This document shows, one piece after another, positions 27,493 to 32,422 of a stretch of 64,000 nt of DNA; within the stretch, counting starts at the first letter, position 1, and each line of letters starts with the position of its first letter. Under the pieces are notes generated by a model. It made no database searches. It was not told the DNA's origin and saw only the letters and a list, made by a program, of their open reading frames with translations. Source of the DNA: Acidobacteriota bacterium (GTDB taxonomy: Bacteria > Acidobacteriota > Holophagae > Holophagales > Holophagaceae); assembly GCA_016213735.1 (NCBI GenBank), contig JACQZU010000014.1, forward strand, positions 62,001-126,000, in the 5' to 3' direction. Made by a program: the position numbers and the translations under genes.

Positions 27493-27589
27493 TGGAATCC
27501 CGGCACATGCGTCCGGCAGAACGGGCAGGATACCCCGGAATCACCGAAATCCCCAGGATTTCCTTTCCTTCAGCCCCGGCCGCCCCCGA

Positions 27590-28017
27590 TTGCCCCCAGT
27601 CAGGAGACAAGCTCAGGGCCGGCTGGGCCGGCCCTGAGCGCGGGGTCTGGGGGCCCAGGCGGGGACAGCCCGCCGTTTGCCCCCAGTCAGGAGACAAGCA
27701 CAGGGCCGGCTGGGCCGGCCCTGTGCGCGGGGTGTGGGGGCCCAGGCGGGCACAGCCCGCCGATTGCCCCCAGTCAGAAGACAAGCACAGGGCCGGCTGG
27801 GCCGGCCCTGAGCGCGGGGTCTGGGGGCCCAGGCGGGGGCAGCCCGCCGATTGCCCCCAGTCAGGAGACAAGCACAGGGCCGGCTGGGCCGGCCCTGTGC
27901 GTGCTGGCGTCAACTCGGTCCGGATACCCCCCCCTTGACGCTGCCCCGCAGCGCCCAGGGGGACCCGGATCCGAGTTGAGGGGGCCCAGGCGGGCAAGGC
28001 CCGCCGTTTGCCCCCAC
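27590..28017 (-). repeat. Tandem array of 87-bp palindromic units at the glnA 3' end, with an inserted hairpin
   Basis: Units begin at 27590, 27677, 27764 and 27851 with TTGCCCCCAG, exactly 87 bases apart, and a last half-unit ends at 28017, one base before the glnA stop. Each unit holds a 13-bp arm hairpin (such as GCACAGGGCCGGC, loop TGG, then its complement), the block GCGGGGTCTGGGGGCCC and a GCGGGCxxAGCCCGC hairpin. The fourth unit is split by the 68-base element at 27911-27978. This fills most of the 563-base space between glnA and rpsA; nothing else is seen there. Confidence 0.95.
27911..27978. repeat. Inserted 68-bp nested hairpin inside the fourth repeat unit
   Basis: CAACTCGG at 27911-27918 pairs with CCGAGTTG at 27971-27978. 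The arms continue, imperfectly, with CCGGAT/ATCCGG. A second perfect hairpin, CGCTGC-CCC-GCAGCG, lies at 27939-27953 in the loop. It interrupts the 87-bp unit: distance to the next TTG word is 157, so about 70 bases were added. Confidence 0.8.
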
Positions 28018-29454
28018 CTAGAACTGATTCCAGAGGTACTGGTTGGTCACCTCGTGGTGGAACTGGATCTCCGAGGGCTTGACGATGGACCCCAGGGCCT
28101 TGGGGCACCGCTCCGCCTGGGCCATCTTGACCTCCGCGAATTTCTCGTGGAAATCCGCTCCCAGGGTGTCCGCCATGAACTTGCTGGACTTGAAGAGGCG
28201 GATGGCGTCGAAGATGTTGTCGGGCAGGAAGCGGGTGCGGGGCCGCTTGGAGTCGTCGTTCTCCGCGATCGGTCCCTCCAGGCCCGTGCGGAGCAGGGCG
28301 TAGTAGATCAGGTAGGGGTTGGCGTCCGGGCCGATGGAGCGGACCTCGATTCGGGCGGATTTCTCGTTTCCGATGGGGATCCGGATCATGGATCCGCGGT
28401 CGGTGGGGGAGACCTTGATCTGGTTCGGGGCCTCGAAGTGGGGATCCAGGCGCCGGTAGGCGTTGACACTGGGGTTCAGCATCAGGCAAAGGTCCGTGGC
28501 GTTGGCCAGGAGGCGGTTCGTGAAGTCCCAGGCGGCGTCCGACAACCCTTCCTTGCCGCCCTTCTTGTAGAAGAGGTTCTTGCCCCCCTTGGAGAGGGAG
28601 ATGTTGGTGTGCATGCCGTTGCCGTTGACCCCGGCCACCGGCTTGGGCAGGAAGGAGGCCGTCATGCCCATGCGTGCGGCCACCTGTCGCGCCAGGAGCT
28701 TGTAGATCTGGACCTGGTCCGAGGCGATGTTCACCTCGGCGTAGCTGTAGTTCATCTCGAACTGGGAGGGCGCCACCTCGGGGTGGTCCTTTTCGTTGGC
28801 GAAGCCCATGGCCCGCTGGGCTTCGGCGGCGGTGTCGATGAACTGGCGGAGGGGGTCCCCGGGCAGGCTGTGGTAGTACCCCCCGGTGGAGACGTACTCG
28901 AAGGCGCCGGTCTCGTGGTAGTGCCGCTCCGCGTCCAGCCCCTTGAAGATGAACCCCTCGATTTCGTTGGCGGCGTTCAGGATGGTGCCATTCCTGGCGA
29001 ACAATTGGCCGGTGTAGGCGCTCAGGCGCGCCCGCATGTCCGCAGAGTAGGGAGTGCCGTCCTGCTCCTGAACCATGCCGAAGACCAGGACCTTGCCCGG
29101 CCCGAAAATGTCGCTCGGCAGCCAGTAGAAGGCGGGCCAGTCCACCGCAAGGCGCAGGTCGGATTCAGCCTGGCGCGAGAATCCACGGATGGAGGAGCCG
29201 TCGAAGGTCAGGTTGTCCGAAGACTTCAGCAAGAATTTCTTGTCGTAGTCCAGCATGTGGAGGCGGCCCTCCACGTCGGTGAAGCAGACCGTGACCGCCT
29301 TGATCCGCTTCTCGGAGGCCAGGTACTTCATGCGCTCCTCGCGGATCTTGTCGGGAGAAACCCGGTCCAGGCGCTGCTGCTTGGCCTGGAGGTTCAGGAC
29401 CTCCAATTCGTCGTAAGGAATTTCGAGGAAGTCCCGAAGGGGGGTGGTGGGCAT
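28018..29454 (-). CDS. glnA: Glutamine synthetase, type I
   Basis: The 478-residue enzyme makes glutamine from glutamate, ammonia and ATP in the cytoplasm. Type I blocks are present: the loop NLTFDGSSIRGFS, PSQFEMNYSYAEV with metal-binding Glu residues, the NGNGMHTNISLS segment, RRLDPHFEAPNQIKVSPTDRGSMIRIP, and RIEVRSIGPDANPYL. The adenylylation loop with NLYDLPPEE-like Tyr seen in type I-beta enzymes is not found, so it is probably type I-alpha-like and regulated by other means. A strong AAGGAGG site precedes the ATG. Upstream is an extremely AT-rich promoter region. Its stop runs straight into the repeat array. Confidence 0.95.
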   Translation of the reverse strand: MPTTPLRDFLEIPYDELEVLNLQAKQQRLDRVSPDKIREERMKYLASEKRIKAVTVCFTDVEGRLHMLDYDKKFLLKSSDNLTFDGSSIRGFSRQAESDLRLAVDWPAFYWLPSDIFGPGKVLVFGMVQEQDGTPYSADMRARLSAYTGQLFARNGTILNAANEIEGFIFKGLDAERHYHETGAFEYVSTGGYYHSLPGDPLRQFIDTAAEAQRAMGFANEKDHPEVAPSQFEMNYSYAEVNIASDQVQIYKLLARQVAARMGMTASFLPKPVAGVNGNGMHTNISLSKGGKNLFYKKGGKEGLSDAAWDFTNRLLANATDLCLMLNPSVNAYRRLDPHFEAPNQIKVSPTDRGSMIRIPIGNEKSARIEVRSIGPDANPYLIYYALLRTGLEGPIAENDDSKRPRTRFLPDNIFDAIRLFKSSKFMADTLGADFHEKFAEVKMAQAERCPKALGSIVKPSEIQFHHEVTNQYLWNQF

Positions 29455-29526
29455 GGCGGCCTCCTTGCTTACAAGAATAGGTCCGTTAGAATAAATTTCA
29501 ACAAAATTATATTAAAATCTGATAAA

Positions 29527-29556
29527 ATTATATTAAATTTAAAAAAATGAAATCAA
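29527..29556 (-). promoter_or_regulatory. glnA: glnA promoter within an 11% GC region
   Basis: On the minus strand, TTGATT (29551-29556) and a perfect TATAAT (29527-29532) are separated by 18 bases. A second perfect TATAAT lies 21 bases further downstream at 29506-29511, within a 14-base direct repeat (29503-29516 and 29524-29537). The 80 bases 29491-29570 contain only nine G or C. Confidence 0.6.
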
Positions 29557-29668
29557 CTTTAAAACAAATCCCGAACGCCCCTCGGAACGGGCCCGGGGGT
29601 GGGAAGATACGGGTAGTATTCATTCAGCATGATCGGCTTCCTTGATCTTCCTGAGCAGGAGGGATCCC

Positions 29669-32422
29669 ATGGCCGAACTGGATTCACACCCCAAGACCGA
29701 TCCCATGGGCGGCTGCCTCGGCCTGAGGGAGAGCCTGGAGGCCGAGTTCCTCCTCCTCCTGCCCGAGGAACAACTCCGGGCCCGCTGGGAGAAACAACTT
29801 GCGGACTGCCCGGACGAGCGGACCCGGATGCAGACCCTCATCCGGGCCTTCCACGACCAGAAGCGGAGCGCTCTGTGCCTTTCAGGAGGGGGGATCCGGA
29901 GCGCCACCTTCGCCCTGGGGGTGGTTCAGGGCCTGGCCAAGGCCGGGGCGCTGGGGCGCTTCGATTTCCTGAGCACCGTCTCCGGTGGAGGCTTCCTCGG
30001 CGGGTGGCTGCAGGCCTGGATGCGCCGGGAGGGCCAGGCCCGGGTGCTCCAGGCCCTGGCCCGCCATGAACCCGTCTGGGGCGATGTCCGGGAGGAATCC
30101 TCGGGCCCCGTCAGGGCGATGGGTCCCGAGCCCACCCCGGAACCGCGGCCGGTGTGGTGGCTGCGCTGCTACAGCAACTACCTGAGCCCCAGGCTGGGCT
30201 TCCTGAGCTCCGACACCTGGACCCTGGTGGCCTCCGTGGCGCGGAACCTGGTGCTTTCGTGGATGGTCCTCGTGCCCCTGCTCCTTGCGGCCCTGGCCCT
30301 GCCCCATCTCTTCCGGGCCTCGATCCTGAGCGCGACCTATTCCTGGAATGAGGTTCGCACCTGGCTTGGCGTGGGCATGGCCTTCAACGCGGTCGCCCTC
30401 GCGGCCACCCTGGGCTTCCGCCCCAGCGCGGACCCCGCCTACGACCCCGGGAAACCCGGCGCCACCGGCCGTGGGCCGGCGGTGCTCCTCATGGCCTGCC
30501 TCGTGCCGCTCCTGGTGGGGGTGGCCTGCCTCACGGTGGCCTGGGCGGGCGCCTCGAGGTCCTTCGCGAGTGGGGGCCGCCAGCCGGTGTATTGGCACTT
30601 CGTCGCGGGGCCGGCCCTCTCCGTTTTCCTGGGGTGGATGGGCTATGCCCTGCTCTGGAGGCGCTGGCGCTGGGTGGAGGGAGTGGCCGGCGTGCTGGCG
30701 GGGGCCCTGGGCGGAGGTGTTCTGCTCGGGTTATCGCGGCTGAAGGTGCTCGATCCGGCCTGGTGCCAGGGGGTGCCCTCCATCGCCCTGGCCATTCCCA
30801 TGGTGCTCCTCACCGCCAACCTCATCGGCACCTGCATCATCGCCCTCGGGAGCCGCCTGGGCTGGCAGGACGAACAGGACCGCGAATGGTACGCCCGCCT
30901 GGGGGGATGGATCCTCCTCTCGGCGGTCCTGTGGGCGACCGTGACCGGCCTGGCCCTGGCCGGTCCCTACCTGGTCGCCTCCTCGATGCTCGGGGCGGCG
31001 GCCTTCCTGGCCACCAGCGGGGGGGCGGCCGCCCTGAGCCTCTGGGGGGCCCTCAGCGGGCGGGGACGCGGGCGGGAGGGCGAGGCTGGCGCCGCGATTC
31101 GGCTTGCGAGCCCCGCCGCCGGAGTCGTTGCGTTGCTGGGGGTGATGACCGCCCTGGCGGTGCTCGTGGACTGGATCCTGGTCCGGATCCAGGTCCCGGT
31201 TCCCCCTGCCCCGAAATTCCTGGAATGGGTCATCAATCTCCAGAGCATGGCCCTGGTCCAGCAGGGTCCCCTCCTCCCGGCCGCGGTGGCCGCGGGGGGA
31301 CTGTGTCTCGGCTACCTCCTGAGCTGGGTCATCCCCCTCAACCTGTTCTCCCTCCACAGCCTTTACCGGAACCGCCTCATCCGGGCCTACCTGGGCGCCT
31401 CCCATTCACGGCGGCACCCCCACCGTTTCACCGGATTCGATCCCGAGGACGATTTCCCCCTGTCCCGGCTGATCCGGGAAGCCCCCCGGGGGGAGTCCGA
31501 TGGACCCCTCTCGGAGGAGTTCTTGAAGCGTCCCCACAAGCTTTTCCCCGTGGTGAACATGGCCCTGAACCTGTCGCGGAGCGACAACCTGGCCTGGCAG
31601 GAGCGGAAGGCGGAATCCTTCGCGGCCACCCCCCTCCACTGCGGAGCCCTCTTCACAGGATTCCGCCCCAGTTGGGGCTACGGCGGGAAACACGGGATGA
31701 CCCTGGGCACGGCGACGACCCTTTCCGGGGCCGCGGCCAACCCCAACATGGGCTACCACGATTCGGCCACCCTCGCCTTTCTCATGACCTTCTTCAACGT
31801 CCGCCTGGGCGCATGGAAGGGCAATCCGGGGCCGGCCGGGGCCTCCACCTGGACCCTGGAAGAACCGGGCTTTTTCCTGCCCCTGTTGATCTCCGAGGCC
31901 CTGAGGCTCACCGGAAGGGACCACCCCTTCGTCAACCTCTCGGACGGCGGCCACTTCGAGAACCTGGGCCTGTACCAGATGGCCCTCCGGCGCTGCCACC
32001 TCATCCTGGTGAGCGATGCCAGCGCCGACCCTCGCGGGACCCTCGAGGACCTGGGAATCGCCTTGCGGAAGATCCAGACCGACCTGGGAATCCCCGTCAC
32101 CTTCGCCGACGGACCCCGCACCTGGTCCCGGGACCAGGAGGAGGACCGCGGGGCCGGGCAGCGCTTCGCCGTGGGAACCCTTCACTACGAGGAGGTGGAT
32201 GGCGAGGGGTCTCCCCCTGGCACCCTGATCTACCTCAAACCGGTCCTGCGGGGGGACGAGCCCGCCGACGTGGCCGCCTACGCCCGAGCCCACCCGGCCT
32301 TCCCCCACGAGGGAACCCAGGACCAGTTCTTCAGCGAATCCCAGTTCGAGTCCTACCGCCGCCTCGGCGCCTGGACCTGCGAAGCCGCGGCGGGAGCCCT
32401 GGTCAGGGCGTTGCCCTCCTAG
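29669..32422 (+). CDS. Membrane-embedded patatin-like phospholipase
   Basis: The 917-residue protein has a patatin active site split in two. GGGIRSATFALG (73 onward) forms the oxyanion loop and Ser105 in TVSGG is the nucleophile; Asp759 in LSDGGHFENLG completes the dyad. Between them lie about nine or ten hydrophobic helices (about residues 190-550), for example LVLSWMVLVPLLLAALALP and PMVLLTANLIGTCIIAL, so the catalytic halves flank a membrane domain. It would be an inner-membrane lipase with its active site in the cytoplasm. The ATG at 29669 has AGGAGGG upstream and is preferred over one at 29642. It is divergent from glnA and probably monocistronic. Confidence 0.85.
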   Translation: MAELDSHPKTDPMGGCLGLRESLEAEFLLLLPEEQLRARWEKQLADCPDERTRMQTLIRAFHDQKRSALCLSGGGIRSATFALGVVQGLAKAGALGRFDFLSTVSGGGFLGGWLQAWMRREGQARVLQALARHEPVWGDVREESSGPVRAMGPEPTPEPRPVWWLRCYSNYLSPRLGFLSSDTWTLVASVARNLVLSWMVLVPLLLAALALPHLFRASILSATYSWNEVRTWLGVGMAFNAVALAATLGFRPSADPAYDPGKPGATGRGPAVLLMACLVPLLVGVACLTVAWAGASRSFASGGRQPVYWHFVAGPALSVFLGWMGYALLWRRWRWVEGVAGVLAGALGGGVLLGLSRLKVLDPAWCQGVPSIALAIPMVLLTANLIGTCIIALGSRLGWQDEQDREWYARLGGWILLSAVLWATVTGLALAGPYLVASSMLGAAAFLATSGGAAALSLWGALSGRGRGREGEAGAAIRLASPAAGVVALLGVMTALAVLVDWILVRIQVPVPPAPKFLEWVINLQSMALVQQGPLLPAAVAAGGLCLGYLLSWVIPLNLFSLHSLYRNRLIRAYLGASHSRRHPHRFTGFDPEDDFPLSRLIREAPRGESDGPLSEEFLKRPHKLFPVVNMALNLSRSDNLAWQERKAESFAATPLHCGALFTGFRPSWGYGGKHGMTLGTATTLSGAAANPNMGYHDSATLAFLMTFFNVRLGAWKGNPGPAGASTWTLEEPGFFLPLLISEALRLTGRDHPFVNLSDGGHFENLGLYQMALRRCHLILVSDASADPRGTLEDLGIALRKIQTDLGIPVTFADGPRTWSRDQEEDRGAGQRFAVGTLHYEEVDGEGSPPGTLIYLKPVLRGDEPADVAAYARAHPAFPHEGTQDQFFSESQFESYRRLGAWTCEAAAGALVRALPS

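Follow-up and report, generated by a model that had tools for sequence, protein, structure and literature searches.

A palindrome array at two-helical-turn spacing before a divergent glutamine synthetase gene: a candidate nitrogen operator in Acidobacteriota, Myxococcota and Planctomycetota

Why should a stretch of DNA with hardly any G or C lie just before a glutamine synthetase gene in an otherwise GC-rich region? The window, i.e. the whole 64-kb stretch of DNA that was analysed, has a GC content of 68.2%. A sequence-only reading had drawn attention to positions 29491–29570, said to hold nine G or C in 80 bases and two TATAAT boxes 21 bases apart within a 14-base direct repeat. A recount agrees with the nine, and the lowest 80-mer of the window starts one base earlier (29490–29569, 8 G/C); the next lowest separate 80-mer has 26. 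The boxes and the repeat are also as described: with both strands scanned, TATAAT occurs only twice in the 64 kb, both times on the minus (glnA) strand and inside exact 14-base copies 21 bp apart. The island is about 36 bases from the glnA start at 29454 (minus strand). The features concerned are as follows.

28018–29454, minus strand: divergent type I-like glutamine synthetase gene, 478 amino acids (Pfam PF00120, 235 bits; TIGR00653, 256 bits, cut-off 429)
29460–29466, minus strand: AAGGAGG, likely ribosome-binding site, from the sequence
29490–29569, no strand: AT-rich island, 8 G/C in 80
29503–29516, plus strand: 14-base direct repeat, copy 1, AAAATTATATTAAA, 14 bases matching at lag 21
29524–29537, plus strand: 14-base direct repeat, copy 2, at lag 21

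The gene had been called glnA. Its PF00120 match upholds a glutamine synthetase, but by its profile scores the protein is a divergent one which the GlnA model fits less well than the genome's one other glutamine synthetase; the latter scores 512 bits with TIGR00653, above the cut-off. No such island was found upstream of that other gene. A search of 60 relatives finds the synthetase at E<=1e-100 in 14 genomes including its own, and the non-self proteins are 58–86% identical. Titled contigs with relatives are labelled as Myxococcota, Planctomycetota, Acidobacteriota, Chloroflexota and others.

How unusual is the arrangement for DNA of this composition? When the 88-base island was shuffled 2000 times with its dinucleotides kept, 169 of the shuffled sequences had at least two TATAAT on either strand, whereas only 11 had a repeat of at least 14 bases and none had one with period 21. 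Thus it is the period, and not TATAAT, that is the unusual part. Self-similarity of the island is strongest at lag 21 (z=3.7), and lags 11 and 10 come next (z=3.2 and 2.8).

Promoter scanning of the glnA strand shows two sigma70-like −35/−10 pairs with spacers of 16–18 bp, against 0.2 expected.

29551–29556, minus strand: TTGATT, candidate −35 of putative promoter P1, spacer 18 (the pair has 10/12 consensus bases)
29527–29532, minus strand: TATAAT box 1, candidate −10 of P1
29506–29511, minus strand: TATAAT box 2, without a −35 partner in the scan
29496–29501, minus strand: TTGAAA, candidate −35 of putative promoter P2, spacer 16 (the pair has 9/12 consensus bases)
29474–29479, minus strand: TATTCT, candidate −10 of P2

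The absence of a sigma54 site, remarked on earlier, is borne out, as the glnA strand has no near match to TGGCAC-N5-TTGC, though rpoN is present in the genome. A structured RNA leader was considered and rejected, since no Rfam match was obtained up to E=5 and folding is ordinary (z=−0.51). Terminator-like sites number 2, with 1.9 expected.

Relatives of the gene provide the main evidence. The comparison took in 88 glutamine synthetase genes (the window, 11 relatives and 76 titled contigs), with as much as 220 bases of upstream sequence from each. Omitted before counting were L012 (46 upstream bases), L014 (masked upstream) and L089 (no upstream), as well as L016–L018, whose contigs are shared with L003, L006 and L007. 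Lag 21 gives self-similarity in 18 of the 88 upstream regions (2.07 in shuffles, sd 1.66), lag 42 in nine (1.62, sd 1.34), these two being the only ones of 33 shifts to exceed four standard deviations; it should be pointed out that such counts are not independent, since the loci share ancestry and many of them are MAGs, and that phylum labels taken from titles may err in places.

An unconstrained single-motif EM collapsed to bare A/T richness and was replaced by a dyad model with local background. In the resulting blind search, which tied two copies of a 13-base motif at a fixed step and covered 20 spacings, step 21 scores 352 and the runner-up 190. The motif reads aatTTAgnCTaa. Its unit matrix is self-complementary over nine columns, TWAGNCTWA (0.91, a value reached by six of 1000 column shuffles), and the antisense strand passes as often as the sense strand (43/68 and 44/68). 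The self-complementary matrix and the equal strand scores thus identify palindromes set in tandem at intervals of two helical turns, as opposed to a directional repeat.

The array is recovered when a group is left out, the motif retrained without it and then sought there (p<=0.05, each sequence being compared with its own shuffles). Recovery is 24/25 in Myxococcota, 13/14 in Planctomycetota, 8/13 in other Acidobacteriota, 7/11 in the Holophagaceae-type loci and 3/8 in mixed others; in Chloroflexota it is 0/17. Control regions were run for 68 of the 76 titled-contig regions. With the full-set matrix 44/68 upstream regions pass, compared with 1/67 windows located 700–920 bases farther upstream and 4/66 post-gene windows. 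The consensus pair with up to three mismatches is present in 45/88 regions, the window included, versus 0.1 in shuffles. Pairs of the strict core are 21 bp apart in seven regions, 42 bp in five and 22 bp in one; the remaining spacings among the eight commonest listed have none, and the median over spacings 12–45 is 0. By comparison, any TATAAT is found in only 16/88 upstream regions, many of these from Chloroflexota, which are without the dyad. Sequence comparison shows an operator-like array kept at a nitrogen-assimilation gene across at least three phyla. No description of this element was found in the literature searched, and among the matches listed for the motif strings there were only unrelated sequences.

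The window's own array extends over 29486–29536, with a TTA-N3-TAA palindrome every 21 bp.

29486–29494, no strand: palindromic unit nearest glnA, TTAGAATAA (plus) / TTATTCTAA (minus), the top-scoring unit of the window (9.1)
29507–29515, no strand: middle palindromic unit, TTATATTAA (plus) / TTAATATAA (minus), from the matrix score and the TTA-N3-TAA triple
29528–29536, no strand: distal palindromic unit, TTATATTAA (plus) / TTAATATAA (minus), from the matrix score and the TTA-N3-TAA triple

One TTA-N3-TAA triple at 21-bp steps exists in the window, and 0 are expected even with two mismatches. On the minus strand, the right part of each of the two AT-only units forms a TATAAT box together with the base that follows. 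On the operator reading the TATAAT pair is a side effect of units built from A and T alone, and the distal box may double as a real −10. Two helical turns, the spacing pointed out in the sequence-only reading, is the step that relatives conserve. That reading proposed that the second TATAAT may be an alternative start or a repressor-binding copy; the regulator-binding half of this fits the relatives, which keep the 21-bp spacing of the palindrome and not TATAAT. The third unit (29486–29494) and the conservation across relatives were not part of it. Taken by itself the window's array is degenerate: a matrix trained without its family gives it p=0.083, and spacing 21 ranks second of 20. The nearest ortholog (L003, 86% identical) gives p=0.003 and aligns with the window unit for unit by eye; another close ortholog, L004, is not significant in the array test (p=0.59).

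We think it rather probable that the island is the operator array of a putative nitrogen regulator, that it overlaps sigma70 promoters and that it probably represses them. Computation shows the array, its spacing, its palindromic form, its conservation at glnA and its occurrence at some amtB promoters; binding by a protein, a nitrogen signal and a repressive effect are what we infer for it. A putative dimeric DNA-binding protein would bind each 9-bp palindrome (TWAGNCTWA; TTA-N3-TAA in the window), and at least two dimers would share the same face of the helix, as the palindromes are 21 bp apart. Repression would be the most likely outcome in the window because the units overlap both candidate sigma70 promoters, P1 and P2. 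Nitrogen limitation would then release the protein and switch glnA on, and some of these genomes would use the same array to control ammonium-transporter genes.

The position of the units varies among relatives. In genus g5 only 30–42 bases separate the beginning of the last unit from the aligned gene start, too few for a promoter to fit in between, and repression is thus the likelier effect there and in the window. In Myxococcaceae the units either lie at a possible −35 or precede it. That position would also suit an activator; repression is read here from position. Several relatives have TTG directly 5′ of a unit, as does the window with its TTGAAA. Also seen in genus g5 is a longer inverted repeat that flanks the last unit, GAAGCC...GGCTTC in L008 and L010 and imperfect in L011; it may be a further arm of the operator, or else form a hairpin in the RNA.

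Is the array confined to glutamine synthetase? The genome has two P-II genes, each directly 3′ of an amtB-like frame. The first amtB promoter (amtB-glnK, L162) has an island of its own, with 8 G/C in 60 and four units at 21-bp steps, and gives p=0.03 with a matrix trained on glnA alone. With the same matrix, the amtB arrays of Myxococcaceae (L181, L183 and L184, from Myxococcus/Corallococcus) are matched by 0/200 shuffles, and a Kofleriaceae amtB (L182) has p=0.005. Overall only 5/24 tested amtB loci reach p<=0.05, L178 having been dropped from the set as a partial amtB match. An amtB in genome G022, 79% identical, fails the matrix (p=0.33), although its self-similarity peaks at lag 21 (z=3.0). 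The second amtB promoter of the window's genome has an island (5/60 G/C) but no lag-21 signal (z=1.0). Thus the array is not limited to one gene, but its amtB membership is patchy. By eye, the frame upstream of the second amtB-glnK (L160, G000:C10:84800-89500, minus strand) resembles a sigma54-dependent activator, and the gap between the two has 5 G/C in 60.

Searches for further targets used a strict-dyad pattern over 18 genomes and a profile model, R1, over the 60 relatives and 12 further genomes. R1 was built from 30 of the 38 dyads listed. At E<=5 it matches nothing in the genome of the window, and it misses the amtB sites of Myxococcaceae. A single match at E<=5 was obtained in 11 of the 12 further genomes, and those checked by coordinate are glnA sites, mostly in the training alignment. 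As the matches are mostly training sites and amtB sites are missed, a single-target regulon is not claimed. Seven non-glnA matches in relatives (L131, L139, L124, L125, L123, L128 and L130) reveal no recurring nitrogen gene. Glutamate synthase-like subunit genes are seen by eye just past amtB in Corallococcus (L187, G061:C133:20000-36000), and no array is visible by eye upstream of gltB in this one genome.

Could the island do without a dedicated regulator? An ordinary strong sigma70 promoter, with an AT-rich upstream element and tandem −10 boxes, would account for the AT richness and for the two pairs, TTGATT-18-TATAAT and TTGAAA-16-TATTCT, found where 0.2 are expected. It would leave the second TATAAT without a −35, and it does not foresee that relatives retain the palindrome and the 21-bp step instead of TATAAT, or that control regions taken from these loci nearly lack the signal; we consider it unlikely. 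It is very improbable that helically phased A/T tracts simply bend the DNA, with no sequence-specific protein. Lags 11 and 10 do come close behind 21 in the island, as such phasing would have it, but the motif found by the blind search is centred on a specific G-n-C and prefers one spacing only, and this also holds for GC-rich Myxococcota loci that have no long A/T tracts.

If the operator reading is followed, which protein might bind? No conserved neighbour suggests itself: open reading frame clusters of 79 glnA loci consist of the synthetase, its shadow frames and groups of at most five loci, and no shared regulator was seen by eye beside amtB in five regions. Two families were tested and are not supported. 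Lrp/AsnC-type proteins that sense glutamine and wrap DNA round several dimers would suit a multi-unit array of degenerate, regularly phased palindromes. In the part of PMC10201364 available, proteins of the BarR type, which belong to Lrp, bind several palindromes at regular spacing and a relative, Grp, binds glutamine. Each genome has few AsnC-family genes, and matches are found in 21/23 genomes; the two without a match, G074 and G076, which may be incomplete assemblies, are those of L022 and L044, both with the dyad. The AsnC-family genes of the genomes with the array do not form a clean ortholog set, and the BarR sites given in that part are longer (15 bp), with spacers of 15–17 or 27–29 bp. 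A regulator of this type is decidedly unlikely. LytTR-family operators have a geometry identical to that of the array, with 9-bp repeats, 12-bp spacers and a 21-bp step, but the repeats are asymmetric in the part of PMC6193735 available and the array unit is palindromic. LytTR genes have no match in 4/23 genomes (G073, G074, G076 and G077), though these assemblies may be incomplete; they are the genomes of L020, L022, L044 and L054, all with the dyad. A LytTR array is thus extremely improbable.

Nitrogen control is known from NtrC in Proteobacteria, GlnR/TnrA in Bacilli, GlnR in Actinobacteria, NtcA in cyanobacteria and NrpR in some archaea. Patterns for NtrC, NtcA, sigma54, AmtR and both types of GlnR are near background in the 88 regions and absent from the window; sigma54, for example, has 2/88 versus 1.0 shuffled, the window not included. 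In Bacilli the MerR-type GlnR/TnrA have a nitrogen-responsive operator over the glnA promoter, TGTNAN7TNACA. The array is likewise at a glnA promoter and would respond to nitrogen, but that sequence is near background here, with one mismatch allowed (6/88 regions; shuffles 3.8, max 5; none in the window). The OmpR-type GlnR of actinobacteria is similar in that its nitrogen operators, too, consist of several helically phased units and occur at both glnA and amtB; according to the part of PMC10704036 available its boxes are asymmetric, 22-nt and in tandem (gTnAc-n6-GaAAc), in contrast to a 9-bp palindrome every 21 bp. With one mismatch this box is found in 6/88 regions (shuffles 3.2, max 7) and none in the window. 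As to the two families weighed above, LytTR operators share the 9-bp units, the spacer and the step and differ in unit symmetry (PMC6193735, in part), and BarR/Grp share several regularly spaced palindromic dimer sites and, in a relative, glutamine sensing, with sites that are longer and spaced otherwise (PMC10201364, in part).

In the literature searched, no regulator of this glutamine synthetase was found for Acidobacteriota, Planctomycetota or Myxococcota, which are large groups of soil and water. We put at even chances the broader proposal of a new nitrogen-control system in these three phyla, in which a putative regulator on TWAGNCTWA palindromes two turns apart would govern glutamine synthetase and, in part, ammonium transport. 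The conserved operator could serve as bait to isolate the regulator from cultivable Myxococcus, a genus with some of the clearest arrays at glnA and amtB, which would make the gap in nitrogen control testable.

Two neighbours of the locus may be mentioned. A divergent gene at 29642–32422 (plus strand, about 920 residues) is weakly patatin-like at the N-terminus of its product (29.9 bits against a cut-off of 27.7) and matches nothing in NCBIfam. Between the glutamine synthetase and ribosomal protein S1 genes, at 27582–27901, there is an 87-bp tandem repeat of 3.7 copies with 94% matches.
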